A DNA stretch of 51,555 bases from Ignavibacteriae bacterium HGW-Ignavibacteriae-1 (GTDB lineage: Bacteria > Bacteroidota > Ignavibacteria > Kapaibacteriales > UBA2268): positions 1 to 51,555 of the forward strand of contig PGYU01000019.1 in assembly GCA_002839825.1 (NCBI GenBank). The letters run 5' to 3'. The notes under the pieces are model-generated. The model searched no databases. It saw nothing but the letters and a program-made list of their open reading frames with translations, and had not been told where the DNA came from. Position 1 is the first letter of the stretch. Every line of letters starts with the position of its first letter. Positions 3,903 to 47,326 of this stretch are shown here, in pieces. The position numbers and the translations under genes were made by a program.

Positions 3903-4703
3903 ATGATGACTGATTCGTTCAGAACCGAAGTCCAAGATGCTGTTCAGCCTTTTGAGTCAATTTCGCTATTAGATTTAGATACGTACAAGCTATTAGACCG
4001 ATTTGACACAAAGTTTGTACTCCACGCTGATGACCTACAAATGCTCATTTCCCATCTTCAAGATGATTACTCGGCTTTGGAAATAGCCGATGAAAGAGTG
4101 TTTCAATACAAAACATTGTACTATGACACTGATGATAATTTGCTTTATCATCTGCACCACAACGGCAAGTTGAACCGCTCCAAAGTGCGTGTACGCGAGT
4201 ATTCGAGCACAAGCAAGAAATATTTTGAAGTTAAATTCAAATCCAACAAACAAAAAGTTTACAAATCCAGACTTGCAGGCTCACAAATTGACCCTGGACT
4301 TAACCATGATAGTATCAGAAAAATTTTAGAAAAGAACAATCTGAACGGTCTCGAACTGAAGTCTAAATTGACTGTAACATATAATCGGATGACTTTTTTG
4401 CACAAGTCATTACCGGTCAAGATAACAGTAGATTGGGACTTGTATTTCAAAAATTGTATTAACGAAGGTGAGCTATCCGAGCTTGTCATAGTCGAATTCA
4501 AAACAGCAAAACCTTCAGATGCTGCAGAGTTCACTATACTGATGAAAGAATTACAAATACAGGAGTTGCGAGTAAGCAAATATTGTTTGGGAGTGATGCT
4601 TTTGGATACTCAGATTAAACGGAACCGATTTAAGCAAAAATTAATGTTTATTAACAAAATGTTAGGAGATAGGAATGGAAGTACCCAGTATTTTAGGGTT
4701 TGA
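3903..4703 (+). CDS. VTC-domain polyphosphate polymerase-like protein
   Basis: A 266-residue soluble protein covering one VTC domain, the tunnel-fold (TTM-like) catalytic domain of yeast Vtc4 that makes polyphosphate from ATP. Visible family elements: DRFDTKF (Lys37), TLYYDTDD near 75-82, the basic strand KVRVREY near 98-104, FEVKFKSNKQ near 114-123, YNRMTF in the middle and VIVEFKT (acidic metal ligand) near 200. Lys/Arg residues pointing into the tunnel bind triphosphate and the closing Glu binds metal. It overlaps the DUF4956 gene by 29 bp. Bacterial VTC proteins are commonly encoded beside DUF4956 membrane proteins, which supports a membrane-coupled polymer function. Polyphosphate as product is inferred from the family. 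Confidence 0.85.
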   Translation: MMTDSFRTEVQDAVQPFESISLLDLDTYKLLDRFDTKFVLHADDLQMLISHLQDDYSALEIADERVFQYKTLYYDTDDNLLYHLHHNGKLNRSKVRVREYSSTSKKYFEVKFKSNKQKVYKSRLAGSQIDPGLNHDSIRKILEKNNLNGLELKSKLTVTYNRMTFLHKSLPVKITVDWDLYFKNCINEGELSELVIVEFKTAKPSDAAEFTILMKELQIQELRVSKYCLGVMLLDTQIKRNRFKQKLMFINKMLGDRNGSTQYFRV

Positions 4704-5310
4704 TTTATACAGCCCCCAAAATTATTTCGATTTTATATTCAGACTTACAATCAACCTCGTAGCCATATTTATTTTGGCACGAAAAATATATTTCAAATAC
4801 AGACCTAATCGCGATTATTTATTCACTCTCCTTTTATTCAATATCATTGTGTTTTTTGTTTGTTTTTTGCTTAATAAAGTGGTTCTCAGCATTGGTTTTG
4901 CTTTCGGCATATTCGCAATATTTTCTATCCTCAGGTATCGAACGCTAACGATTCCTATCAAGGAAATGACATACATTTTCATAGCTATAAGCGTTGCAAT
5001 CATCAATGCTCTGAGTGAAAATATAATTGGAATAGCCGAATTACTTGTCATAAATGGTGCATTGGTACTGTTAGTTTATTTATTGGAACCGGGCAGAATT
5101 AGCAATGAATTATTTAAAATCATTCGTTACGAGAAAATCGAACTTATCAAACCAGAACATCACGCTGATTTATTAGCAGATTTATCTGACCGCACCGGTT
5201 TGCAAATTCATCGAGTTGACATCGGAAGAATTGATTTCCTCCGCGATACGGCTCTTATTCGGGCTTATTATTATCCTTCAAACGGCGAGATAAGCAATGA
5301 TTTCGATTAG
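4675..5310 (+). CDS. DUF4956 membrane protein
   Basis: 211 residues with four or five membrane helices (about 20-36, 48-64, 66-80, 96-112 and 120-136) and a cytoplasmic C-terminal domain (about 140-211). The segment FGIFAIFSILRYRT ... IPIKEMTYIFIAIS is typical of DUF4956. The ATG at 4675 is preceded by GGAGATAGGA, which supports this start even though it overlaps the VTC gene by 29 bp. It overlaps the next gene by 14 bp, so the three genes are almost certainly one operon. By analogy with eukaryotic VTC complexes it may guide polymer through the membrane; this is inference. Confidence 0.82.
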   Translation: MEVPSILGFDLYSPQNYFDFIFRLTINLVAIFILARKIYFKYRPNRDYLFTLLLFNIIVFFVCFLLNKVVLSIGFAFGIFAIFSILRYRTLTIPIKEMTYIFIAISVAIINALSENIIGIAELLVINGALVLLVYLLEPGRISNELFKIIRYEKIELIKPEHHADLLADLSDRTGLQIHRVDIGRIDFLRDTALIRAYYYPSNGEISNDFD

Positions 5311-6064: not shown

Positions 6065-6484
6065 ATGAAATACCTATTAGTATTCGCATTGATATTAGCA
6101 ACAGCTTGTTCATCAAGCTATGTCAACGAGTCGGAAGACTATTTCGGTTGCAATTACACGCGTGAACAGTTTATGCGAGAAGCGACAACATCTATGCTTA
6201 GGAATGGATTTGAAGTTGTCAGCCATGATTCCGTAAGAGGCAAACTCGAAGTGATGAAGCCTGTCAGAATTGATAGTCGCGAGGCTGAGCTTTATTTCAA
6301 CTTCAATTATAATGAGTATGAAAGAAAGGTCAGTGTGACGTCAAAGTCCAAAATTTGGAATGAAAACTTGAGTACTGAAGAGGAATTCTACGATCTCAAG
6401 AATTATCGTCCTGAAGTAAAATCATATATGATGATTTTAGATAGTATCAAAGTTAATTGCGTAAAAGTGGCTTTCAGAAACTAA
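6065..6484 (+). CDS. Small hypothetical lipoprotein
   Basis: 139 residues with a lipoprotein signal peptide: MKYLLVFALILATAC, lipobox LATAC with Cys15 as lipid attachment site. The mature domain has alternating beta-like segments (ELYFNFNYNEYERKVSVTSKSK) and two further Cys (29 and about 132) that could form a disulfide. No known family was recognised. It lies 72 bp after the VTC operon and its 3' end overlaps the convergent lipoprotein gene by 4 bp. It may be read through from the VTC operon, but the gap contains AT-rich sequence that could hold its own promoter. Confidence 0.7.
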   Translation: MKYLLVFALILATACSSSYVNESEDYFGCNYTREQFMREATTSMLRNGFEVVSHDSVRGKLEVMKPVRIDSREAELYFNFNYNEYERKVSVTSKSKIWNENLSTEEEFYDLKNYRPEVKSYMMILDSIKVNCVKVAFRN

Positions 6485-7242
6485 ATTCCGTTTCCTGAAA
6501 TTTCGATTTGGTCGTAATAATACCACTTTGAGCCGGATTCAAACTCAACTTTGAATTTAATTTTGGCATTGTGCAATCCCGATTTGGTCGGGTTGAATGC
6601 AATTCTTATATCTTCCGAATTAGATTGCGGATTGATAGTCAACGGCAGGTTGACTTCAGGTTCGTTGATAAAGTCACCTTCGTCATCAATTAGTTCAAAT
6701 TCTGTGATAGTAGCCACGACTGTGGAATTATTGCGGATTTGAAATATTTTCAGACTGAACTGATTAACCTGCGTATCTTCAAAAGCCAAATCATTTGCAT
6801 AAACATGGGCTACTTTTGCCGTCAATATTACTTTGGGGTTTTTATGTGTAGGATAGACAAGTGTATCGTGATAATGACCTGATTTATCGCTTTGAAATCG
6901 AAGCTTAAAATCCTTGGTGTAACCTGTTGTGAATTCTTTTTCGAGAGTTACAGGGAAATACAAATCGATAAAACTTGTTAAAGTTTTGAGCTTGGGGAAA
7001 TTTGCATCTATGACAATTACTTGTTGGTCTGTAATATTAGTCATGGTCAAATCAATCTCAAAGACTTGATTGGGGCGTATCACATCCGTAGTGATATTAC
7101 TTGGTGTGATAAGGAAGTTTGGAGGTACATCGTTAGGGTCATATTTCACTTTTTTATCTCTTGTAGCATCAACTGACGCAGGGTCTTGGCATCCACCTAA
7201 GACCGACACAAAAAGTAAAACTATTAACAGTCTAAAAATCAT
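6481..7242 (-). CDS. Ig-like-domain lipoprotein of sigma/anti-sigma locus 1
   Basis: 253 residues with lipobox LGGC (Cys18). The mature part looks like two tandem Ig-like/ASH-type domains: ITPSNITTDVIRPNQVFEIDL then KSGHYHDTLVYPTHKNP, and INPQSNSEDIRIAFNPTKSG then HNAKIKFKVEF, a repeated pattern of cap strand plus 'P.ksG.h...i' strand. Such folds serve in periplasmic or surface protein contacts. Its start overlaps the stop of the anti-sigma-barrel gene by one base (TAATG), so translation is coupled. A non-homologous lipoprotein gene occupies the same position in locus 2 (44335-45057), suggesting a functional link to the barrel/anti-sigma protein. Confidence 0.75.
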   Translation of the reverse strand: MIFRLLIVLLFVSVLGGCQDPASVDATRDKKVKYDPNDVPPNFLITPSNITTDVIRPNQVFEIDLTMTNITDQQVIVIDANFPKLKTLTSFIDLYFPVTLEKEFTTGYTKDFKLRFQSDKSGHYHDTLVYPTHKNPKVILTAKVAHVYANDLAFEDTQVNQFSLKIFQIRNNSTVVATITEFELIDDEGDFINEPEVNLPLTINPQSNSEDIRIAFNPTKSGLHNAKIKFKVEFESGSKWYYYDQIEISGNGI

Positions 7243-8477
7243 TATAATGATGCTCCAATTCCAATGCTATAACCTAATTTTTGAGTCATAAACCATTTGC
7301 CATTTTTCCAATCGCCGCGCGATGGATAAAACATAGCACTATAATCCAATCCAACATTTACCACGAAATTATCAGAAATCATGTATCCAATTCCGCCACC
7401 TAATTTTCCTAATGGACCTACATTCGATGCACCCATAAGTAAATTAAACTCCGGAATGACTCCTGAATTACCAATTTCTGCGAATACATATTTATAAGTA
7501 CCTGCATACCATGTACTATTGTAACTTTGCTTGTAATCATAAATGATTTCACCTTCTTGTTGATCAAATTGCATCATAAAATTCTCTTGCCCAACTGCAA
7601 ACCCAACTGAGTGATTTTTGCCAACTTTGTAATTAGCACCAATACTGAAATTATTCATGATTGGCTCATTACTAGCGGCTAAATCAAAATTTGGGAAAGA
7701 ATAAGCACCAAATTTTTTGAAAGACAAACTAACGTTTGATAAAAATCTTCCCAAAGATGTATAATTCGGGGATTGGACAACACCATAGGAGTTCGCACCG
7801 CCAAAATCAAAATAATTGGCATTGTATGGGTGGCTATTGTCAATAGCTCTAAAGTTTGACTCTTTTGCAGACAAGTTATCATTATTCAGTAATTGAGCCA
7901 ATTCATCCGACAAATCATCTTGTACAGGGATTACAACAGCATTCCGGTTTGATGCGGCTAAACCGGATTGACTATTCACACGGCGTGAAGTACTCGAATT
8001 ATTAGCTGAATTGGTGCTCACCGTTTCATCTTCGCTTTGGCTGCTCATTATCGGGTATTGTGGTGCCGATGATTCTGAAGTCAACAAAATTTGGCGCATC
8101 TCAGAATTAGAATTTGAATCATTAAACTTACTGAATATCATAAGCCCAATCAACAGAACTAATGACGAAACCGATGCTATACGTAGCCAAGAACCGGCAA
8201 AGATTGCCGAGTAGAAAGCGGGAGAAAAGATACGCTCGATTAGTGTTGGCGTTGCGAGCCCAACCTTAGTCAGAATCTTTTCTTTCAGGAAGTCCGGAGC
8301 TGCCATCTGCTTGTTACGGAAAGTATTCTTAATCAACATCAACTGATTAAACTCTTCCTGCATATCCGGATTTTGAGCTAATTCGTAGAAGAGTGTCCCG
8401 AGCTCTTCTTTAGAGAGTTCACCATCAATAAATGCGGTGAGTTTCTCATCAGGTTTCAAAAATTCATGCTCTTTCAT
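7242..8477 (-). CDS. Anti-sigma factor fused to outer-membrane beta-barrel (Dma-like), locus 1
   Basis: 411 residues from the preferred ATG (MKEHEF); an upstream GTG at 8489 would add four residues, but GAGA lies well placed before the ATG. Layout: N-terminal anti-sigma-like helices (about 1-75: LTAFIDGELSKEEL, NPDMQEEFNQLMLIKNTF), without the Cys/His zinc ligands of classic zf-HC2; one membrane helix (about 98-117); a Ser/Asn-rich linker (118-235); and a C-terminal barrel-like region (about 240-411) with alternating strands ending GYSIGIGASL. This is the dual membrane-spanning anti-sigma (Dma) arrangement described in Bacteroides thetaiotaomicron, where an outer-membrane sensor controls a cytoplasmic sigma factor. 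It sits 22 bp after an ECF sigma gene and is paralogous to 43008-44321. Confidence 0.8.
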   Translation of the reverse strand: MKEHEFLKPDEKLTAFIDGELSKEELGTLFYELAQNPDMQEEFNQLMLIKNTFRNKQMAAPDFLKEKILTKVGLATPTLIERIFSPAFYSAIFAGSWLRIASVSSLVLLIGLMIFSKFNDSNSNSEMRQILLTSESSAPQYPIMSSQSEDETVSTNSANNSSTSRRVNSQSGLAASNRNAVVIPVQDDLSDELAQLLNNDNLSAKESNFRAIDNSHPYNANYFDFGGANSYGVVQSPNYTSLGRFLSNVSLSFKKFGAYSFPNFDLAASNEPIMNNFSIGANYKVGKNHSVGFAVGQENFMMQFDQQEGEIIYDYKQSYNSTWYAGTYKYVFAEIGNSGVIPEFNLLMGASNVGPLGKLGGGIGYMISDNFVVNVGLDYSAMFYPSRGDWKNGKWFMTQKLGYSIGIGASL

Positions 8478-8499
8478 AAAATATCTCACTTTTTAATAA

Positions 8500-9072
8500 T
8501 TAATTTTCATTTTGTATATCGTCAATGTAAGGCGTCATAATCTCTCTAAGTTTCTGTTTGCCCCTGAATATCCTTATTCTGACTACCGAAACAGTCACAT
8601 CGAGAGCAAAGGCGATGTCTTTGTAACTCATATCCATGAACTCTTTCATCACTATCACTTCACGGAAATCTTCAGGCAAAGCATCTAGTGATGTATGGAG
8701 TATATCTGCAATCTCATTATTCTCGATTTTTGTGTCGTTGTATTCATAATGAGATTCATCGAAGGGAACTTTGACTACTTTCCCTCGTGTTTTTTCATTC
8801 AAGCACAAATTTCTCGCGATTCTAATCAAATAACCTTGAACATTTGACATTTCGTCAATTTTTTGGACAGATTCGTAAAATTTTATAAAAATATCTTGAA
8901 AAATGTCTTCCGACATATTACTTGAATTAAGAACTTTTCGGCAATAAGTATAGATTTTATTTGCGTAACGCGAATAAATTTCATCAAAGGCTTGTCGAGA
9001 TACCGTTCTATCCTTAGATTTCAGATATACAAAAAGCTCTTCGTCTGTCTTATGTGCAAATTTTTCCAACAT
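8500..9072 (-). CDS. ECF sigma-70 factor, locus 1
   Basis: 190 residues with sigma region 2 (FDEIYSRYANKIYTYC ... SEDIFQDIFIKFY ... YLIRIARNLCLNEK) and region 4 (LDALPEDFREVIVMKEFMDMSYKDIAFALDVTVSVVRIRIFRGKQKLRE, seen as separate segments with the helix-turn-helix at about 145-170). The ECF layout lacks regions 1 and 3. The cognate anti-sigma is encoded 22 bp downstream. Two TPR histidine kinases lie upstream on the same strand. Closest relative in the window is the locus 2 sigma factor, with conserved DIFQD.FIKFY and IARNLCLN. Target genes cannot be read. Confidence 0.93.
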   Translation of the reverse strand: MLEKFAHKTDEELFVYLKSKDRTVSRQAFDEIYSRYANKIYTYCRKVLNSSNMSEDIFQDIFIKFYESVQKIDEMSNVQGYLIRIARNLCLNEKTRGKVVKVPFDESHYEYNDTKIENNEIADILHTSLDALPEDFREVIVMKEFMDMSYKDIAFALDVTVSVVRIRIFRGKQKLREIMTPYIDDIQNEN

Positions 9073-9151: not shown

Positions 9152-11248
9152 TTATTTTTTTGGAAAGGTGAGAATAAATGTGGAACCTTCGTTCATTTTT
9201 GATTGGATTTCGAGCGTTCCGTGATGATATGCAAGCAATTCATTCACAAGCAAAAGCCCCAAGCCCGTACCGGATTCGTTCATAGTTCCCGGAGCAGAGT
9301 AACTTTTTTCTTTTCTCTTGAGCGTATCAATTTGTTCCTGAGTCATCCCAACTCCGAAGTCAGTAATATTAATTTGGATTGAATTTTCGTTCTCGAAAGC
9401 TTTGATATGTATTTCGGAGTTGATTTGCGAAAATTTGATTGCGTTATTGACAATGTTTCGTAATATTGTTGAGAGCATGTTCAAATCGGCATAAATTGGT
9501 TGTTCCGTGTCTATGGAACTAACAATTTTGATTTGTTTATGGCTAGCATTTATCCGGAACAAGTCCGTAGTGTTGTCTATTAAACCTTTGAGATTGATGT
9601 GTTCCGGATTGTACGATATCAAATCCCTTTGTGTGAGCGACCAAAGTAAAAGATTTTGGAGCAAATCATTCAAATTTTTTGCAGAATTCAGAATCTCCAG
9701 ATTGAGATTGTCGTATTCATCATCATCGAATTCGATTTCCTTGTCCTTAATTAAACTCGAAATTCCGATTATCACGCTCAGCGGATTTCTGATATCGTGT
9801 GCAATTATAGACAGGAACTTATCTTTGGTCTCATTCAGTTGTTTTAATTTAACAGCATTTTGTTCCAGGATTTGATTAGATTGTTCCAATTCATCGTTTT
9901 TCTTTCGGACCAACGCTGCGAGTTTCGATACGGCATGATATCTGTTCCAGATTATGACAGCAATTATTATCACCAAAAAAATCGTGATGAGAAGATATGT
10001 GGATTTAGTTTGATTTTTGCTGTTTTCCCTGCTCAATATCGAAATTTGGGCTTCTTTTTTGTCTAAATCCATTTGCGTTCTCATCTTCGACATTTCGTCG
10101 TTGTAGATGTTCTTACTCAGTGAATCACTATACTCTTTATGGAGCATAAGGAACTCAAAGGCTTCTTTGTAATTGCCATTTTCCGAGTAAAACAGGGCAA
10201 GCACCTGGGCACCTGTACTCATAAATTGCAATGAACCAATTGACTTAGCACTGTCATAGCTCTCTTTCGACATTTTGATAGCTTGTGCGATGTTGCCGGA
10301 ATCGAAATAATCATATGCTAAATTGAATTGACATGATAGAAGTGCTGATTTCAAATCATTGCTAGAATAATAGTCAATTGCTTTTTGATAATATGGGATT
10401 GATTTGTTGTAATCTCCTTTATGGGAGTAAATATTACCAAGGTTGTTGTTTATATTGGCTATATAGTTCAAATTACCAACTTTTTGAGCATTTTCAATAG
10501 CCTGAAGATATAGTTTGGCTGCAGAATCAGAGTTGTTTTGCTTTTCTTCAATCATTGCGAGATTTGATAGTGTCCCTGCAACTCTATTAATATCTTTTGT
10601 AGATTCTGCAATAGTCAAACATTCTTGGAATTTTTCTTTTGCCGCGTCATAATCTCCCAATTCATAAAATAGCAATCCGAAATCTGTTGTGATTATTGAA
10701 TAGGATTGCAAGATGAAGGATATGGAATCCTTCTTTTTTTGTTCATAATTGTCGAATTCTTTTGAATACTTGGAGATTGTGTCTTTGTTGAACATGGAGT
10801 ATGCTTTGAGGCTTAGTTCCATTGCCTTGTTATAATTGGAGCTTCGTTGCTCAAGCAGCGATAGCTGAGATAATGCAAATGCGTAGCTTACTTTTTTGTC
10901 TAATTTATCAAAAATCATTATAACTTTTTGAATAGTATCCTTAGCCTCTTGGTAACGGTCAGTCAAAGTCAGAAAGTAGGCATAATTGCTCAATACCTTT
11001 CCGATTTTGAATTCATCACCGTAATTGTAAGCTTTTTCAAGCAGAGTTTTATACAACATAGTTCTTTCATCAACAGTCAGAACATGTGTACCACCTAATA
11101 CATTTTCAATATAGGTGATTTGATCAACTCCCTTTTTTTGGTTAACAATAACTAATAAACTATCAATTGAAGATTTTGAAACGTAGAAATTGGATAGGGC
11201 AACAATTATGATTGTAAATAAAAACTTGGACACAATGTTAATTTTCAT
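9152..11248 (-). CDS. TPR sensor histidine kinase (downstream tandem copy)
   Basis: 698 residues: N-terminal signal/anchor helix (about 7-24), periplasmic TPR repeats (about 60-390; e.g. ANINNNLGNIYSHKGDYNKS), one membrane helix near 415-435 (YLLITIFLVIIIAVIIW), a coiled-coil linker, HisKA with the phospho-acceptor in SIIAHDIRNPLS (His near 484), and HATPase_c with N box RNIVNNAIKFS, G1 DFGVGM and G2 GTGLGL. It autophosphorylates in response to a periplasmic signal. No receiver domain and no response regulator are encoded nearby, so the partner is elsewhere. A diverged paralog lies directly upstream. The gene lies 79 bp before the locus 1 sigma gene. Confidence 0.93.
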   Translation of the reverse strand: MKINIVSKFLFTIIIVALSNFYVSKSSIDSLLVIVNQKKGVDQITYIENVLGGTHVLTVDERTMLYKTLLEKAYNYGDEFKIGKVLSNYAYFLTLTDRYQEAKDTIQKVIMIFDKLDKKVSYAFALSQLSLLEQRSSNYNKAMELSLKAYSMFNKDTISKYSKEFDNYEQKKKDSISFILQSYSIITTDFGLLFYELGDYDAAKEKFQECLTIAESTKDINRVAGTLSNLAMIEEKQNNSDSAAKLYLQAIENAQKVGNLNYIANINNNLGNIYSHKGDYNKSIPYYQKAIDYYSSNDLKSALLSCQFNLAYDYFDSGNIAQAIKMSKESYDSAKSIGSLQFMSTGAQVLALFYSENGNYKEAFEFLMLHKEYSDSLSKNIYNDEMSKMRTQMDLDKKEAQISILSRENSKNQTKSTYLLITIFLVIIIAVIIWNRYHAVSKLAALVRKKNDELEQSNQILEQNAVKLKQLNETKDKFLSIIAHDIRNPLSVIIGISSLIKDKEIEFDDDEYDNLNLEILNSAKNLNDLLQNLLLWSLTQRDLISYNPEHINLKGLIDNTTDLFRINASHKQIKIVSSIDTEQPIYADLNMLSTILRNIVNNAIKFSQINSEIHIKAFENENSIQINITDFGVGMTQEQIDTLKRKEKSYSAPGTMNESGTGLGLLLVNELLAYHHGTLEIQSKMNEGSTFILTFPKK

Positions 11249-36738: not shown

Positions 36739-37341
36739 TCACACCTCAATCGCCATCAATTCAATTTCGTGAAGTGTGTCTGTTTGTCCGGATAGCCATA
36801 GTTGCTCGTTGGCACGGTCTAAGATTACGGGCATACGTTTTTTGGAATTATGAATTTCGCGCATCAATCCGATTGCTTCGGTGGTGAGAATTGTGTAGGT
36901 GCTGATTATTTCGCCTGTGTTGCGGTCTGTCCAGTGGCTGTATAGCCCTGCAAAGGCAAAGGCGGCATTGTCCGGCAGGGTTATGAGGTATTTCTGCTTT
37001 TTCTTGCCGGCTTCGTCTAACCATTTCCATTCAAAAAAGCCATCGGCAAGCACCAAACAACGGTTATGCACTACGTTTCTGAAGGATGGTTTTTCGTGTA
37101 TGGTTTCAATTCTGGCATTCAGTGTGCTTTTCCTTATACTGTCGTCTTTTGCCCAATGCGGAATTAATCCCCAGGAGAATAGTTGGATATTGCCAACATC
37201 GCTTCTTGTGATTACGGGTGTTTTGGGGAAACGGAACCCGTTGTAAACTTCGGGACGGTATTCTTCTTCGTCCTCAAATTTTGCTTTGAAACGGTGTTTT
37301 AGCTCTTGAGCCGATTTCGATTGTTGGGAATGGAAGCACAT
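36739..37341 (-). CDS. SRAP domain protein (HMCES/YedK type)
   Basis: 200 residues starting MCFHS, so that Met removal exposes Cys2, which forms the thiazolidine crosslink with abasic sites in single-stranded DNA. Other conserved residues are visible: WGLIPHWAKD, LNARIETI (Asn75, Arg77), ADGFFEWKW (Glu104), and EIHNSKKRMPVIL (His164). It shields abasic sites from strand breakage. It follows umuC by one base, so it belongs to the UmuDC operon; SRAP genes are known to be associated with SOS genes, and this placement agrees. Confidence 0.93.
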   Translation of the reverse strand: MCFHSQQSKSAQELKHRFKAKFEDEEEYRPEVYNGFRFPKTPVITRSDVGNIQLFSWGLIPHWAKDDSIRKSTLNARIETIHEKPSFRNVVHNRCLVLADGFFEWKWLDEAGKKKQKYLITLPDNAAFAFAGLYSHWTDRNTGEIISTYTILTTEAIGLMREIHNSKKRMPVILDRANEQLWLSGQTDTLHEIELMAIEV

Positions 37342-37342
37342 A

Positions 37343-38602
37343 TCAGCAATGAATTTTAATGATGTCGGAAAGTTTGGTTGTGTATCGTGGTGATAGCTTT
37401 TCTTGTTTCATTTTCCAAACGCGTTTTTGGTCTTGAGTCGCCAAGCGAATTTTTTGCTGCCCGTAGCTTTTGTTGAGTGCGTCCACAGCTTTCATTAGCG
37501 GAATATGCCTTTCGTCGCGATTTTCAAACAGGTGGATTTGTGGGCTGTCTTCGGGTGTGAAATCTTGTACGATTACGCCTGCTTTTTTGTAGTGGTAGCC
37601 ATCTTTGAATATTTTCGATAAAGCAAATAGTGCAAATCTGCTTAATTCGATGCTTGAATTGGTTGCAAAGGGCAATTTGATAACTATGTTTCGGCTGTAT
37701 TGAGGCAAGTCCTTGCGGTGTCCGTTGGTATGCACAAACACCATGAGCGAATTGCAACAGGACTTTTGCTGACGCAACTTCTCAGCGCACGATACGGCAA
37801 ATGTTGAAATGCGTTCCTGCAGTTGCTCCAACTTGGTGTAATTTTCTTCAAATGAACGCGTAGTTGCGATGCTTTTCTTGGAGTGCAATGCATCTAAGCC
37901 TAATGTGGGTATGCCCTGCAAATCCTGCTTCAGACGCAAGCCTACGATTGCCATCTGCTTTTTGACCCAAGCATCGTCAAGTTGGACAAAGTCGTATGCC
38001 GTATTTACCCCAACTGAGATTAGTCTTTTGCTGTGTTGGCGTCCGATTCCCCAGACATCTTCAATTTTGAGCCATTTAAGTGCTTTAATTCGTTTTTCGT
38101 CGGTGTCTATGATGTAGGCGCCTTCAGTTTCTTTGGGGAATTTTTTCGCAATTCGATTTGCCACTTTTGCAAGTGCTTTGGTGGGTGCAACACCTACGCT
38201 TATGGGGATTCCTGTCCATTTTTGCACTTTGATTCGTAATTCTTTGGAATAGTTCTGCAAATTGAGATGCTCCAATCCATCAAACTTCAGAAAAGCCTCG
38301 TCAATGCTGTAAATTTCCATCTCGGGGCTGTATTGCTCCAAAATACTCATTACGCGTTGGCTCATGTCGCCATATAAAGCAAAATTTGCCGAGAAGACTT
38401 GCACATTATGCTTGTTGAGCAGTTCTTCATATTCAAAAAGTGGTGCACCCATTGGAATACCGACTGCCTTAGCTTCGTTACTGCGTGCAATCACACAGCC
38501 GTCGTTGTTGGAAAGAACCACAACGGGTTTGCCCACGAGGTCGGGTCGGAAAACTCGCTCGCAGGAAGCATAAAAATTATTACAGTCAATGAGAGCAAAC
38601 AT
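37343..38602 (-). CDS. umuC: Y-family DNA polymerase V catalytic subunit UmuC
   Basis: 419 residues from ATG 38602, which overlaps the umuD stop by one base (TAATG); a longer in-frame start at 38641 would lie inside umuD. Catalytic motifs: [17 protein letters not shown] (first Asp), [15 protein letters not shown], and [11 protein letters not shown] (Asp-Glu). Helix-hairpin-helix [13 protein letters not shown] follows near 180, then the little-finger domain and the C-terminal umuC extension ([20 protein letters not shown]). Error-prone translesion polymerase active with processed UmuD. Confidence 0.94.
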
Positions 38603-39054
38603 TACAATGGCTTTTTGATGATAAATGTTACGACGCCCCAAACTTCAAGGTTGTGATGTTCCTCGACTTTGATGGGTTTGTATGAATCGTTTTCGGGCAT
38701 TAGCCAAATTCCGCTTTTGTCAATTTTTATACGTTTCAATGTAAATTCTCCGTCAATGTAGCAGACTGCGATTTTGCCGTCGGCGGGTTCGATGCTTTTG
38801 TCAATGACCAATAGGTCGCCATTATTTATACCTGCCCCACGCATAGATTCGCCTTGCACTCTGCCGTAAAAAGTGGCAGCCGGATGTTCGATTAAATGCT
38901 TGTTCAGGTCTATGTTTAGGTCCACAAAATCTAAAGCCGGCGATGGGAATCCTGCACTAAAAGTAAAGGGGAGCAAAGGCAATTCAAGCTCCGTAGCTGT
39001 GTTTGCGGAGTAAATTACCAATGTTGGGCTGCTATGTAATTTCAATAATGCCAT
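38602..39054 (-). CDS. umuD: UmuD, S24 self-cleaving protein
   Basis: 150 residues from ATG 39054 (MALLKLHSS); an upstream in-frame extension to 39147 would run over the promoter and is rejected. LexA-like S24 serine peptidase: cleavage site at Ala34-Gly35 in [11 protein letters not shown], catalytic Ser70 in [11 protein letters not shown] and Lys107 in [10 protein letters not shown]. RecA-stimulated self-cleavage should give the active form that binds UmuC. First gene of umuD-umuC-SRAP. Confidence 0.93.
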
Positions 39055-39080
39055 TAAATTCCTCGGGAAAAAATGATATG

Positions 39081-39112
39081 CAAACTTATACAATAATTGG
39101 CATAATATCAAA
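39081..39112 (-). promoter_or_regulatory. umuD operon promoter
   Basis: Minus strand TTTG (39109-39112), 20 bp, TAAGTTTG (39081-39088), fitting TTTG/TAnnTTTG with one extra spacer base. The second box ends 26 bp before the umuD ATG. Confidence 0.6.
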
Positions 39113-39155
39113 GGAGAATGAAATTTGAACGAAAGTCGCTTTAGCATTATGCCAA
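39097..39155. promoter_or_regulatory. Candidate operator: inverted 17-bp repeats over the umuD promoter
   Basis: TTGGCATAATATCAAAG (39097-39113) and, inverted, CTTTAGCATTATGCCAA (39139-39155): 14 of 17 bases match, with 25 bp between. The first copy covers the TTTG box. Each copy is itself partly palindromic. A LexA-type repressor site is the obvious guess given the SOS operon, but the sequence is not a known LexA box. Confidence 0.45.
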
Positions 39156-42420: not shown

Positions 42421-42987
42421 ATGGCGAAGAACTTCAGAAGTCTGTCAGATGTAGAACTCGTTTCGATGCTAAGTGGCAATAAAGCCGACGCATCGGAAGC
42501 TTTTCGTGTGCTTTACGACAGATATTCTTCGATTGTTCATGCTTACTGCGTCAGAGTGACAGGCGATGAGGACAAAGCCGACGACATTTTCCAAGACACG
42601 TTCATCAAATTTTACCAAAAGGTACAACCGGACGTTGAAAATACAAATATCCCGGGCTTTTTGATGAAAATCGCTCGCAATTTGTGTTTGAATGCCAAAC
42701 GAGATAAAAAGAACACTATTGACATTGACGAAGTGGATTACTACGTCAGCACAGGTACAAATTACGAACAAAAGGAACTGTTAGATTTGATTACACGCTC
42801 GCTGGATTTGCTCGAGGACGACTATCGAGAAGCCTTTGTGTTGAGAGAATATAGCGGTTTGAGCTACGAGGAGATTGCCGAAGTGACGGGCATTTCTCTC
42901 GGCAATGCAAAATCAAGAGTTTTTAGGGCTAAGCAAAAGATTAAATCTATACTTAACCCTTATTTGAAAGACATTAGTATGAAATAA
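42421..42987 (+). CDS. ECF sigma-70 factor, locus 2
   Basis: 188 residues. Region 2: FRVLYDRYSSIVHAYC, ADDIFQDTFIKFYQK, FLMKIARNLCLNAKRD. Region 4: LDLLEDDYREAFVLREYSGL, YEEIAEVTGISLGNAKSRVFRAKQKIKS. Paralog of the sigma factor at 8500-9072. A TAAATTTG box near 42403 lies just upstream and may be its promoter. The anti-sigma-barrel gene starts 20 bp after its stop. Confidence 0.94.
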   Translation: MAKNFRSLSDVELVSMLSGNKADASEAFRVLYDRYSSIVHAYCVRVTGDEDKADDIFQDTFIKFYQKVQPDVENTNIPGFLMKIARNLCLNAKRDKKNTIDIDEVDYYVSTGTNYEQKELLDLITRSLDLLEDDYREAFVLREYSGLSYEEIAEVTGISLGNAKSRVFRAKQKIKSILNPYLKDISMK

Positions 42988-43007
42988 TATAATTTAATGG
43001 TCCGAAA

Positions 43008-44321
43008 ATGGAACAAGAACAAATAATATACGATTACATCGAAGGAGTTTTACCGCCTGAAAAAGAGCTTGAGCTATTCCAAATGCTTACAGCCAATGAA
43101 GAATTGCGGGCAGAACTCAAAAGTCAAATGGCGATTAAAAGTGCAGTCAAATCCGATGTTGTTGCTTATACGCCAAAAGCCCAATCTACAATGAATATTT
43201 TCAATACGATTGGACTGACTCCTCCTCCGGGAATAGCTCCTATACCAAGTCCGGGCTTTTTCTCGGTAGTTGCCGCTAAATTTAGCAGCCTGTCACCTTT
43301 ATTATTGACGGGTATGGCAACCGCTGTAGCTACTGCAGTTGTTATCTTTATGCTCTATAATTTTGGTACTTTTGATGGAGTTTTAGTTGCCAAATATGGC
43401 AACAATCAAACAAGCAATAATTCATCCATCAATAATATCAACCAAAATGCGATACCAACAATGACTTCCGAAGCTGAAGTAGCTCATTCAAATGCCAATA
43501 AAGCATTAGAGCCGAGCGCAGTTGATAAAGCGGAAGCTGAAGCTGAACCAAAAGTGGTTTACAAATATATTTATGTAACCAAAGATGATTCTAAGGCTAA
43601 TGAAAATCAAAATAGTTTGGCTCAACAAGACAATATCGAATTGCTGAATAATAATAATAATAGTGCTTCAAACAACATGTTTTCACCGTCGGAAGTCGCT
43701 TTGAGCAAATCAAATTTATCATCTCCGGACTTTCAATATAGGGGCGAAGATGCTCCTTTGACCTTGCTCAGAAGCCCGTATGGTGCTAATGATATTAGAA
43801 ACCCGATGATTGAAACTGCTTTTATCGGCAATGAAGGAAATGAAAATTTCGCCTTCGAGTTCCGTGGCTCGATTTACAATCATGGCGAAGGCGTCAAAAT
43901 TGACCCCGCAAAATATGACATGGCTAACATCGGCTTGTCCTTAACATATTCAGTGTTTGATGAGTTGAAAGTTGGTGTTGACATTCATAGAGAAAATTTC
44001 TACCAAACTTTTTCAGGTGTTGAAGACGGTGTGTTATTCACTTATCACCAAAATCCAAACATCGAAACGTATGGAGCTTTATTACGCTACAACCCTGATT
44101 TTGCAAAAATTAGTTATTTCGCTCCTTTTGTTCAAGGGAATGTTGGCTATTCGACAGTTGGTCCGGTAATGAGGGGAATGATAGGTACTGAAATATCATT
44201 TGACAATACTTCCAAATTCATAGTTGCTTATGGTTATAACCACTTGATATTTAAACATGACGGGAATTGGTTTAATTCCGGTAAAACCGGTTTGCAAATC
44301 GGATTTGGGTTTAAATTCTAA
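43008..44321 (+). CDS. Anti-sigma factor fused to outer-membrane beta-barrel (Dma-like), locus 2
   Basis: 437 residues: N-terminal anti-sigma helices (about 1-50; YIEGVLPPEKELELFQMLTA, NEELRAELKSQMAIKSAV) without zinc ligands, a Pro-rich segment, one membrane helix (about 97-118; LLLTGMATAVATAVVIFMLY), a long Asn/Ser-rich linker (120-260; with NNNNNSASNN) and a C-terminal barrel-like domain (265-437; FAFEFRGSIYNHGE ... TGLQIGFGFKF). The C-terminal domain aligns with locus 1 over 'REN F.Q.F ... VGP...G.IG ... G.G'. The same order (cytoplasm, one helix, linker long enough to cross the periplasm, barrel) fits dual membrane-spanning anti-sigma factors. Confidence 0.8.
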   Translation: MEQEQIIYDYIEGVLPPEKELELFQMLTANEELRAELKSQMAIKSAVKSDVVAYTPKAQSTMNIFNTIGLTPPPGIAPIPSPGFFSVVAAKFSSLSPLLLTGMATAVATAVVIFMLYNFGTFDGVLVAKYGNNQTSNNSSINNINQNAIPTMTSEAEVAHSNANKALEPSAVDKAEAEAEPKVVYKYIYVTKDDSKANENQNSLAQQDNIELLNNNNNSASNNMFSPSEVALSKSNLSSPDFQYRGEDAPLTLLRSPYGANDIRNPMIETAFIGNEGNENFAFEFRGSIYNHGEGVKIDPAKYDMANIGLSLTYSVFDELKVGVDIHRENFYQTFSGVEDGVLFTYHQNPNIETYGALLRYNPDFAKISYFAPFVQGNVGYSTVGPVMRGMIGTEISFDNTSKFIVAYGYNHLIFKHDGNWFNSGKTGLQIGFGFKF

Positions 44322-44334
44322 GGAAAAAATTGTA

Positions 44335-45057
44335 ATGAATCAAATTTATATTGTACTTATCGCAGCCTTATTAACCTTGGGACTATTCTCTTGCGAAGAT
44401 TCTCTCGGGGTCAACGGTACTGATTACATCAAGGAAATGGTATCCGGCGATACAATCAGTATTGATACAACTATGATTAATTTCAAAAAAGTAGTTATTC
44501 GCGAAATCGTGAATAAACGTGATACGCTTTATGATACTTCTTATGTAAAGCAACCTATAGTTACATCCAATAAAAGTTACTTGCAAATATTCCAACGTCA
44601 CGGACAAGGTGGCGATATGCGTGAATTGAATTCGGAGTTTGATGAATTCAGTTACAATTCAACATTGGATTATAATTACTTGACTCCAAAATTAGATTTG
44701 ATTATGTCAGTTACTACTAATCACGAAATGCAAGCAGTTAAAAACAAGGGGTTCCCCGGAGTTATCAGATATGGATACATCAAAATACCCGAAATGTTTA
44801 TTATTAGCGACCATCCGATACCGTTGGCTGAACTAAAAAAAATGGGTGGAAACTTCAAACTTACTTTTACAACAACCGATTTAGTCAATTATAATTACGA
44901 AGCAAACCAAATTAACGGTATGTTTGGCGTAAGTAAACGTATAGTCGAAGAAGGCGAAATTAAGAGTGTAACCTTATATTTCCAAGGTGAAGTTTTCGAT
45001 TTAAACAATCCGGCAAAAAGATTTGCCTTCGCTTTCCACCTCAGACTTGATTTCTAA
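44335..45057 (+). CDS. Lipoprotein of sigma/anti-sigma locus 2
   Basis: 240 residues from ATG 44335 (AAGGA upstream; the in-frame start at 44257 lies inside the previous gene). Lipobox GLFSC (Cys20). The mature part has no recognised domain: a Thr/Ile-rich region (DTISIDTTMINFKKVVIREI) then a beta-rich domain (about 80-240; SYLQIFQRHGQGGDMRELNS, LKKMGGNFKLTFTTTDLVNY, FAFAFHLRLDF). It starts 13 bp after the barrel gene, at the same place as the Ig-like lipoprotein of locus 1, although the two lipoproteins are not clearly homologous. Confidence 0.75.
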   Translation: MNQIYIVLIAALLTLGLFSCEDSLGVNGTDYIKEMVSGDTISIDTTMINFKKVVIREIVNKRDTLYDTSYVKQPIVTSNKSYLQIFQRHGQGGDMRELNSEFDEFSYNSTLDYNYLTPKLDLIMSVTTNHEMQAVKNKGFPGVIRYGYIKIPEMFIISDHPIPLAELKKMGGNFKLTFTTTDLVNYNYEANQINGMFGVSKRIVEEGEIKSVTLYFQGEVFDLNNPAKRFAFAFHLRLDF

Positions 45058-45067
45058 ACTCGCGCAA

Positions 45068-47326
45068 TTAGTTTTTTCGGACTACTGCAATTTTCTGGAC
45101 AGAAGTTTCTTTAGTTGTTAGCGAAGTCGCTACGACTAAAAATATACCACTATTGACTAAATTGCCTTTCTCATCTTTGCCGTCCCATACAGTCTTTTTG
45201 CTTCCGGTGACAATTCGCCTTACGAATAAACCATCGGAAGTTAGGATTTTAAGCTCCGAATATTCTACAAGTCCGTCAATAACCAATTCAGCGTCAACGC
45301 TTGGGTCAAATGGCTGCGGATAGCAAGCGATTTCGTAATTTTGAGCCGGAGTGACTGATAGAGTGCTCGCTTCGTAAACTCCAAATCTTGTGCTGAAGAA
45401 CATTTTACCAAATTTGCCATCATAGCCCAATGCAAAAACTTCATTAGTTGGCAAAGGAGAATTTGCGGAGCTAATGTATGCTATTACTTCCGCACCGTCG
45501 GAATCTACCACCCATACACCATCACTTGTTGCTATCCATTTATTATTCTGGGCATCAACTACTATATCGTTCACATAAATCTCGCCTAATAATCTGGATA
45601 GTGACCTGACAATCAGATTGCTTCTGTTAGTCAGTACCGCAGAAGGGTTGACAATGACTGAAACACCTTTGGCAGTTCCAACCCAGATTGTTCCCAATTT
45701 ATCAACTGTTATCGAATTATGTATATTCTCCAACAAATTCGGTATTTGCGACGAAGTCAACATCTCACTTACGTCATCAGTCAAATCATCAGGAGTGCCG
45801 TTCTCATTATAATACATCAATCCCAAACCATGAACAGGAGCGCCACCAACCCACTTAGTACCGTAAAAATCTATTCCAAGAGTCATGAATTGTCTTGAGT
45901 TAGGGCTTTGTTTGTTGACGAAGCCGTAAGAATTACCCTCGGGAGATATAGCTACTAATGATGGACCCGGAGAAACAAGACCTAAGCAAGCCATCCAAAC
46001 CCATCCGTTTTTGTCAACTTCTGAGTCTCCAACAACTATAAAATCAGGTGCATCAGCTAAACCGATAAGCTTGGAATTACTCCTGTCGTAAAGAGTACCA
46101 TTGTTTATTGTTTCATTTTTATCGAAAATATAAATGCCTGCCCCATAGTTGCCGGCATACACTTTGCCATTTTTTGCAGTAATTTTGTGATATTCATTAG
46201 TTTTTAATACCGGATAAACAGGAGATGTATAGTTATTCCAATTTTCACCATCGTAGCTGGCGAATCCTCTCGAAGCACCACCTGAAGTAGTTGCTAACCA
46301 TAAAGCACCATCTTCATCAACGCTCAAACTTTTGAAACTATTGGTTATTGGGCTGTTAGGCATATAATGAATTAAAGTATCATTTTGGAAAATTCCAATC
46401 CCGGCATCGCGATAATATAAAACAAAATAAGCTTCTTCTGAAATATTTTTAACAATTTCAAATCCTCGAATTAGCGCCGGATGATCAATGTTTATAATAT
46501 TAGCACCAATCTGAATATTAAATTGATTCGTAAAAACAAAATTATTATCTAATTCGTTGATACTTGTCAGTTCATCAGGTGAATCAATAAACTCTACAAA
46601 GGAATCAGCTTGGAACTTCTTCACAGCTTTTTCCGACATTGCATAGACAGTATTATTAACAGAGGTTAAACTTAGAATCTTCTTATCATAAAGTCCATCT
46701 TGTTGATCATAATTAGTCCATACAGCAGGATTTGCTAATTGAGCATCAAGTTGAGCTTTTGCTACGCCCACATCAGTAGCGAGCCAAATTGTATTATCTT
46801 CGATTAAAATCTTATTCGTAGGAGTTTGGTTGGGAAATTCACCATATCGCTTAATTGTCTCGAGAAAGACATTGTTATTCAGGTCGAAAACAGCAAGTCC
46901 GAATCCACCTGCAATATAAGCTTTATCGCCCAGAAATTGAATATCATAGATTATTGAGTTAGAAAATTGTTGGTTATATATATCGGTGATATGAATCCAT
47001 TTTTCATCGGGAGTGAATATTTCTATGTAGCCGTCAAATGTTCCGAGCATGACAATTTCACGCTCTTTGTGGGCTTTGATGATGGTAATTTGACTACTTA
47101 GGAAAGCGTTGATATTATCAAATTTTTGATACGAGCCGGTTTTCTTGTCATATACAAATGCTCCGCCCGATGACCCTGCCCAAATTCTTTCTTTATGGTC
47201 AACTGCGACTGTAATGACATCCAACAGCGAAGTATGAGCTTTCCAGTTATCTATCCGGAAATCCACCGAAAAGGCAGTTGTGAAAGTTAGAACGAAACAA
47301 GCTGTGATTATAAAGAATAACTTCAT
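45068..47326 (-). CDS. PorZ-like beta-propeller protein with T9SS sorting domain
   Basis: 752 residues with signal peptide (cut near TAFSVD). N-terminal propellers start WKAHTSLLDVITVAVDHKER and IWAGSSGGAFVYDKKTGSYQ, continue AYIAGGFGLAVFDLNNNVF and many 'G.lWlat..G.s' blades (ALWLATTSGGASRG, KWIATSDGVWVVD). The C-terminus is a T9SS/FlgD-type domain (about 665-752; CYPQPFDPSVDAELVIDGL, ILTSDGLFVRRI, WDGKDEKGNLVNSGIFLVV). Length, start and order agree with PorZ, a T9SS attachment-complex component. A generic two-component-type propeller protein is the alternative. Convergent with locus 2 (10 bp gap). Confidence 0.75.
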   Translation of the reverse strand: MKLFFIITACFVLTFTTAFSVDFRIDNWKAHTSLLDVITVAVDHKERIWAGSSGGAFVYDKKTGSYQKFDNINAFLSSQITIIKAHKEREIVMLGTFDGYIEIFTPDEKWIHITDIYNQQFSNSIIYDIQFLGDKAYIAGGFGLAVFDLNNNVFLETIKRYGEFPNQTPTNKILIEDNTIWLATDVGVAKAQLDAQLANPAVWTNYDQQDGLYDKKILSLTSVNNTVYAMSEKAVKKFQADSFVEFIDSPDELTSINELDNNFVFTNQFNIQIGANIINIDHPALIRGFEIVKNISEEAYFVLYYRDAGIGIFQNDTLIHYMPNSPITNSFKSLSVDEDGALWLATTSGGASRGFASYDGENWNNYTSPVYPVLKTNEYHKITAKNGKVYAGNYGAGIYIFDKNETINNGTLYDRSNSKLIGLADAPDFIVVGDSEVDKNGWVWMACLGLVSPGPSLVAISPEGNSYGFVNKQSPNSRQFMTLGIDFYGTKWVGGAPVHGLGLMYYNENGTPDDLTDDVSEMLTSSQIPNLLENIHNSITVDKLGTIWVGTAKGVSVIVNPSAVLTNRSNLIVRSLSRLLGEIYVNDIVVDAQNNKWIATSDGVWVVDSDGAEVIAYISSANSPLPTNEVFALGYDGKFGKMFFSTRFGVYEASTLSVTPAQNYEIACYPQPFDPSVDAELVIDGLVEYSELKILTSDGLFVRRIVTGSKKTVWDGKDEKGNLVNSGIFLVVATSLTTKETSVQKIAVVRKN

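Follow-up and report, generated by a model that had tools for sequence, protein, structure and literature searches.

The window analysed here, 51,555 nucleotides of contig PGYU01000019.1 from Ignavibacteriae bacterium HGW-Ignavibacteriae-1, carries on its plus strand a tight operon (locus 2, 42421-45057) in which the gene of an extracytoplasmic function (ECF) sigma factor is followed by that of an anti-sigma/transmembrane helix/tether/barrel fusion and then by that of a lipoprotein. The pairing of a sigma factor with an envelope-spanning anti-sigma factor, and one three-gene operon, are already known from Bacteroides; new here is a segment behind the lipidated cysteine that is shared among the mostly unrelated lipoproteins encoded in the third position of such operons.

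The sigma factor of locus 2 (42421-42987, +; 188 amino acids) matches Pfam Sigma70_r2 (4.9e-13) and Sigma70_r4_2 (1.6e-17), and only the general sigma70-ECF model lies above its cut-off among the NCBIfam matches listed for it. The gene for the 437-residue fusion (43008-44321) starts 20 bp 3' of the sigma gene. Its putative anti-sigma domain occupies approximately residues 1-75 (43008-43232), and is followed by a transmembrane helix placed by eye at about residues 97-117 (43296-43358), where the family has a hydrophobic 19-residue window with preceding net positive charge. The low-complexity tether rich in serine and asparagine (43359-43844) includes a strand, KVVYKYIYV, at residues 180-188 (43545-43571), and the C-terminal region, approximately residues 280-437 with a final phenylalanine (43845-44318), is read as an outer-membrane beta-barrel. 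The third gene (44335-45057) encodes a lipoprotein of 240 residues with the lipobox LFSC and its cysteine at residue 20, assigned to body family 4 with relatives at loci L080, L090 and L217 (L-numbers are locus labels). The earliest in-frame ATG is at 44257; the start at 44335 gives a short signal peptide plus lipobox and leaves a gap of 13 bp to the fusion gene. The segment following the cysteine, CEDSLGVNGTD (44392-44424), is of the type common to the module lipoproteins.

As the initial annotation had stated, the identical three-gene order recurs in the window; this second copy lies on the minus strand (locus 1, 9072-6481), about 33 kb away. There, the open reading frame (ORF) list and Pfam scan place an ECF sigma factor at 8500-9072, a fusion at 7242-8489 (GTG start at 8489, with an ATG at 8477; RseA_N 6.2e-6) and a lipoprotein of 253 residues at 6481-7242, whose immunoglobulin (Ig)-like body of ASH/HYDIN/Cep192 type forms part of body family 1 (Cep192_D4 1.7e-7, below the curated cut-off) and whose post-cysteine segment is CQDPASVDATR (7159-7191). 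The paralogy it had claimed for the first two genes was borne out at 39% identity for the sigma factors and 24% identity for the fusions (BLASTP 7e-14), and so was the lack of a clear relationship between the third genes, as the mature lipoproteins of the two loci have no detectable similarity (best E 2.1).

The fusion family and the nine modules of the genome

Nine sigma-fusion pairs are present in this genome (G000; 3.23 Mb in 43 contigs), where the fusion profile recovers only the nine fusions it was built from. All nine fusions adjoin an ECF sigma factor and seven are accompanied by a lipoprotein. With locus 2 named module A, locus 1 module B and L001-L007 modules C to I, the third genes of A and C encode lipoproteins of unknown family, that of B an Ig-like lipoprotein (Cep192_D4/HYDIN/ASH, below curated cut-offs), that of D a META lipoprotein with a weak PrcB_C match, that of F a DUF4397 lipoprotein and that of I a weakly TMEM131-like one. 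In G, a 268-residue gene product that looks like an outer-membrane protein by eye (OMP_b-brl E 0.15 only) precedes a lipoprotein with an Ig-like end. Modules E and H lack the lipoprotein; a convergent leucine-rich-repeat gene comes next in E, and a TonB-dependent receptor lies 248 bp downstream in H.

The fusion profile has matches, partial ones in some cases, in all 30 genomes of the genus, family and order (the present genome among them), with up to 19 in one genome, some being pieces. A broader profile matched 86 of 149 class-sample genomes and 167 of 392 phylum-sample genomes, with many of the matches listed outside the order being to the N-terminal part alone, in short frames. The fusion set used below was assembled from 105 and 80 fusions in two rounds of reading, leaving 167 after removal of duplicates. 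These were drawn from best matches, which biases the set towards relatives of the window, and close orthologues are included. A fusion-alignment search in the phylum around a Bacteroidales genome returned full-length matches largely in genomes already sampled.

The family has a median length of 418 residues. A transmembrane-like hydrophobic window of 19 residues is present in 154 of the 167 members (median position 98 over all 167), and the net charge summed over all fusions is +274 before this window and -125 after it. The tether, rich in serine and asparagine, measures approximately 118 residues when the last 190 are counted as barrel, and the last residue is phenylalanine in 108 of the 167. 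Of 96 family members examined, 10 give a match to RseA_N at E <= 0.01 and 7 a match to OMP_b-brl at the same limit, and the best PDB match of the family is the sigma-E negative regulator 1or7_C, at an E of 0.076 only.

Named records with close sigma relatives are mostly metagenome-assembled genomes (MAGs) of Kapabacteria, Ignavibacteria and unplaced Bacteroidetes. The nearest, L046 (JAGXRP010000082.1), has a sigma factor 97% identical to the window's and is a MAG labelled Desulfobulbaceae; since the next relatives come from Kapabacteria, Ignavibacteria and Bacteroidetes MAGs, this label is probably wrong. NCBI taxonomy places Kapaibacterium within Bacteroidota.

The third-gene lipoprotein and its post-cysteine segment

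A lipoprotein gene lies behind 137 of 164 assessable fusions from Kapabacteria and sister families, three of the 167 having been excluded for too little sequence. This count comprises 130 cases found by rule and seven added by eye, five of these directly behind the fusion and two behind an inserted gene (module G and its orthologue). Among the rule-based cases the median gap between fusion and lipoprotein is 11 bp, with 113 at <=50 bp and 29 overlapping. In comparable stretches 66 of 1078 genes were lipoprotein-like, module lipoproteins having been set aside from the 66, and the module rule is somewhat looser than the background rule (more start codons, no score limit); at this difference, chance neighbourhood of the lipoprotein was rejected.

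Profile merging sorts the lipoprotein bodies into 26 families. DUF4397 and META represent separate Pfam domains, Ig-like Pfam matches lie partly below cut-off, and no convincing Pfam or PDB relative was found for body families 0 and 4. A single divergent lipoprotein family is not supported by these distinct domains or by profile comparisons, which align the N-terminus only. The family nevertheless follows the fusion, changing 12 times on the fusion tree against a mean of 62.7 and a minimum of 54 in 200 shuffles. This test used 116 fusions carrying one of the nine families with at least three members, and close orthologues inflate the contrast, although its direction is clear. Barrel and lipoprotein clearly descend together, with the slot inherited along with the barrel, and free swapping of the third gene was rejected. 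The conserved slot with swapped content described in the initial annotation is therefore only half retained: lipoproteins of different families do fill it, but the family tracks the fusion clade.

Most module lipoproteins share a segment after the lipidated cysteine that approximates C-x-[DS]-P-[LT]-[DG]-[VIL]-[DN]-x-[PN]-R. The seven segments of this genome begin CEDSLGVN, CQDPASVD, CEDTFGTD, CEDPLGVD, CECVPDIT, CGDIVDSD and CKDIINTE, and more distant examples are CTSPIDIDTPR (L258), CKSPLSVDTPR (L239) and CQDPIGVNTPR (L242). Segments were scored with a position matrix over +2 to +11, each family with a matrix built without it, in comparison with 62 other lipoproteins from the same and related genomes. 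The score separates the 137 module lipoproteins from these controls with an area under the receiver operating characteristic curve of 0.914, and the controls' 95th percentile is exceeded by 99 of these lipoproteins and, at the level of family medians, by 18 of the 26 families. The motif region was chosen after looking at the data, and the lipobox of L218 was placed slightly too far towards the N-terminus, by a few residues, so that its score is too low. A segment pattern made by eye as a regular expression matches 74 of the 137 (13 of 26 families) and none of the 62 controls. The third-gene lipoproteins are mostly unrelated in their bodies, but many of them have this N-terminal stretch in common.

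Four of 66 controls had been dropped as lying in module operons. Before this, the top-scoring controls were those of L095 and L128, which proved to be second tandem module lipoproteins: in L095 (3569) and L128 (3249), one fusion is accompanied by a second tandem lipoprotein bearing a similar post-cysteine segment.

Within family 4, the lipoprotein of L217 is 29% identical overall to that of the window, with near-identity at CxDSLGxNGxDYxK. The tether strand KVVYKY[IV]Y, a pattern derived from the window sequence, occurs in 4 of the 167 fusions (window, L080, L090 and L217), exactly those with a family-4 lipoprotein, and these lipoproteins have a conserved look-alike stretch, KKV[VI]I.EI..K.DT (window 44482-44538). 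The tether strand and the look-alike lipoprotein strand may form a second contact in this pair.

Promoter-like sites and neighbouring genes

The pattern GTAAC-N14-17-(TGTT/GTGT/CGTT/GTTA) was present upstream of 41 of 165 sigma genes compared with a mean of 0.8 and a maximum of 2 in shuffles, having been found by enrichment in these same 165 regions after looking at the data. ECF promoters typically carry AAC in their -35 element. In its strict form the pattern matched none of the 137 lipoprotein upstream regions and 5 of 302 other genes, and in a relaxed form it matched 55 of the 165 sigma genes (17.6 shuffled), 6 of the 137 lipoproteins and 31 of the 302 other genes. This supports putative self-activation of the operon by its sigma factor in a subset of loci. 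A separate ECF-type promoter for the lipoprotein was rejected on the same counts, and sigma-70-like sites in the locus were no more numerous than in shuffles (9 vs 9.5). The combination of separate lipoprotein promoters and absent co-occurrence that would have spoken against the module as first annotated was not seen with the strict pattern and the counts above.

Among the neighbours of the two loci, a TPR histidine kinase gene (9152-11248, -) immediately precedes the sigma gene of locus 1, and a PorZ-like gene (type IX secretion; 45068-47326, -) converges on the lipoprotein gene of locus 2. No TonB-dependent receptor directly adjoining either locus appeared in the ORF lists or the Pfam scans. 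Elsewhere in the window, genes for SRAP, a UmuC-like protein and an S24 peptidase (UmuD/LexA-like) stand in a row at 36739-39147 (-) and resemble an SOS mutagenesis cassette, and a VTC-domain gene is followed by a DUF4956 gene at 3903-5310 (+).

Known counterparts and interpretation

The three-part module was not known to the initial annotation as a described system. The sigma/anti-sigma pair does have described counterparts in Dma/Das and EcfO/Reo (PMC13088901, PMC9308784, PMC13114119), and an operon of three genes, das2-dma2-BT_1557, has been published (PMC13088901). The Dma proteins of Bacteroides thetaiotaomicron consist of an anti-sigma domain, a transmembrane helix, a tether-like region and a barrel (PMC13088901). 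The modules described here, as known by sequence, resemble Dma1/Das1 and Dma2/Das2 in that an ECF sigma factor precedes an anti-sigma factor with transmembrane helix, disordered tether and C-terminal barrel, the fusion standing directly behind the sigma factor in each of the nine cases of this genome. They differ in an RseA-like N-terminus and in the many copies per genome. An hhalign comparison of the 96 fusions with three Bacteroidales fusions, none of them a named Dma and thus a thin comparison set, gave a probability of 4.5%, and with L377 alone 11%, neither being significant similarity; L377 was the one likely case of Dma among 30 loci in a sigma-based search of Bacteroidales. The fusions are consequently termed Dma-like by architecture, common descent with Dma not being established. 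In two Bacteroidales loci, L382 and L383, a sigma factor cut by the locus end is accompanied by a barrel fusion (OMP_b-brl 2.6e-7 and 1.5e-5) and by a lipobox-bearing DUF4943 protein, so that their third slot is filled as in the Dma2 operon by a member of the family of BT_1557. These DUF4943 lipoproteins differ from the module lipoproteins in lacking the segment (scores -10.5 and -12.1).

In EcfO/Reo of Bacteroides fragilis and Phocaeicola vulgatus, the sigma factor is likewise paired with a large anti-sigma factor predicted to span the periplasm and to end in an outer-membrane barrel (PMC9308784, PMC13114119). NigD lipoproteins belong to the EcfO regulon (PMC9308784, PMC13114119), and NigD needs EcfO (PMC13114119). 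NigD_N had no match in this genome or in 198 phylum-sample genomes. Among 19 Bacteroidales NigD loci, NigD stood beside an ECF sigma gene in four (L273, L274, L276 and L278), in front of it or divergent, and in none behind a fusion, as judged by a fusion profile that does not recognise Bacteroidales fusions. NigD as a counterpart of the third gene is not supported by these loci. In FecIR-type signalling, an outer-membrane receptor informs the ECF sigma factor through an inner-membrane anti-sigma factor (PMC11637429), whereas barrel and anti-sigma domain form one chain here, and an adjoining TonB-dependent receptor was confirmed only in the lipoprotein-less H clade, behind L006 and L171; in the same clade, L083 and L092 are followed by genes with the same N-terminus, and L169 and L172 by genes for proteins with a type IX secretion system sorting tail. 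A literature search leaving out most subscription papers found no lipoprotein partner or shared lipoprotein segment for Dma/EcfO-like loci.

On this evidence we propose, with confidence evenly divided between belief and doubt, that the three genes form a self-sufficient unit of envelope signalling in which the lipoprotein is a dedicated outer-membrane partner, docked on or sorted to the barrel via its segment. By homology and anatomy, the N-terminal domain of the fusion would hold the cognate ECF sigma factor at the inner membrane, and the single transmembrane helix, the disordered tether and the C-terminal barrel would together reach from the cytoplasm to the outer membrane, in the topology that their order suggests. 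The first approximately ten lipoprotein residues after the lipidated cysteine would then dock on, or be sorted to, the barrel, leaving the variable body to meet an envelope signal or partner; co-occurrence, co-inheritance and the shared segment are the observed basis of this step. When the contact is lost or changed, barrel and tether would be altered and the anti-sigma factor would release the sigma factor, probably by proteolysis. The sigma factor would transcribe its own operon from the ECF-type promoter in front of its gene, a site seen in a subset of loci, and lock and lipoprotein would therefore be remade with it.

Several observations weigh against this proposal. The Pfam scan of the locus-2 fusion itself recognised neither the anti-sigma domain (RseA_N) nor the barrel (OMP_b-brl), the strict promoter pattern is absent upstream of both window loci, and the relaxed pattern is also found upstream of some lipoprotein genes, in the six regions counted above. 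An invariable lipoprotein behind the fusion was not found: 27 of 164 fusions have none, 16 of them in two clades (7 in the H clade, 9 in the E clade) and 11 scattered, the absence requiring 14 changes on the fusion tree against a shuffled mean of 25.4. Because of these 27, the relay can evidently do without a lipoprotein. No barrel residue covarying with the lipoprotein was established; Q348 is present in 110 of 137 fusions with a lipoprotein and 7 of 27 without, which is not significant in independent pairs (median p 0.375). As for the segment, the control limit is not passed by 38 of the 137 lipoproteins or by 8 of the 26 families, several from the more remote members of the class being among them. 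In profile-profile comparisons of three families only the N-terminal 36, 17 and 13 columns align, at low probabilities of 18.6%, 6.4% and 0.2%, and a comparison of body families 0 and 4, with a family-4 profile that included the signal peptide, placed the alignment elsewhere (3.1%). Finally, deletion of the genes downstream of dma2 (bt_1557) leaves the vesiculation of the dma2 mutant unchanged (PMC13088901).

This last result fits a lipoprotein that acts as an output: co-produced with its sigma factor, it would protect or remodel the envelope as an effector and take no part in sensing, and the segment would be only a targeting signal. An input role, for its part, could not show in a dma2-mutant background. 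The signal specificity suggested for the lipoprotein in the initial annotation is a possibility only, since the protein may be such an output of the sigma factor. In Bacteroides, bt_1557 rises by a log2 fold change of 6.00 in the dma2 mutant, the operon genes increasing when the sigma factor is free (PMC13088901), NigD depends on EcfO as described above, and bodies of the DUF4397, Ig-like and META types have the look of common envelope domains. An effector, however, need not be so tightly co-inherited with the barrel clade or remain adjacent to it, nor need it share with unrelated effectors a segment unseen in the 62 control lipoproteins, and we regard the output role as a real possibility that we doubt more than we believe.

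The segment could also be a lineage-specific surface-export signal that marks surface exposure only, a counterpart of the lipoprotein export signal (LES) of Bacteroidota (Flavobacteria and Bacteroides), which lies in the same place right after the lipidated cysteine (PMC5080379). As an explanation of the segment, it overlaps with docking as well as with output. It is a real rival because the order's SusD-like lipoproteins, which are assumed to be surface exposed, partly resemble the segment: 23 of them have a median score of -1.7, between the module (4.7) and the controls (-7.9), and 9 of the 23 exceed the control limit, a result that also counts against a dedicated docking segment. Part of the pattern may thus belong to surface lipoproteins at large, and some module lipoproteins have E-D at +2/+3. 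Module lipoproteins nevertheless outscore the SusD-like ones (p 1.8e-4), and the published LES centre on acidic runs such as C-X-K-(D/E)2-X, SDDDD and SDDFE (PMC5080379), in contrast to the patterned proline, aliphatic and acidic residues here. No such run is present at about +3 to +6, where +4 is mostly proline or serine and +5 leucine or threonine, the acidic residues being spread over +3, +6 and +8, and in some members also +2. None of the controls matches the pattern, although surface exposure may be presumed for some of them. That the segment is only an export signal is something we doubt more than we believe.

Very improbable is a history in which the segment, serving no common function today, merely survives from a single ancestral lipoprotein in the third position whose body was replaced by recombination. 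The constant operon position and the clade-wise inheritance of the third gene would suit such a history, but the segment persists despite divergence of the body, as between the family-4 lipoproteins of L217 and the window.

If the lipoprotein is the barrel's dedicated partner, the modules could, as we tentatively suggest at well below even confidence, constitute a modular sensor in which one shared relay accepts various lipoprotein heads by means of a uniform N-terminal plug docking in or on the barrel of the anti-sigma factor, such that up to seven of the nine paralogous channels of one cell would read different envelope signals. The route by which an outer-membrane signal reaches a sigma factor held by an envelope-spanning anti-sigma factor seems open, the accounts of Dma and EcfO naming no input partner in the portions accessible to us (PMC13088901, PMC9308784, PMC13114119). 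The third-gene lipoprotein, inherited with the barrel and often marked by the segment, is a concrete candidate for this partner that can be tested in Bacteroides too, and, if true, this role would explain how one relay has been multiplied into many separate channels.

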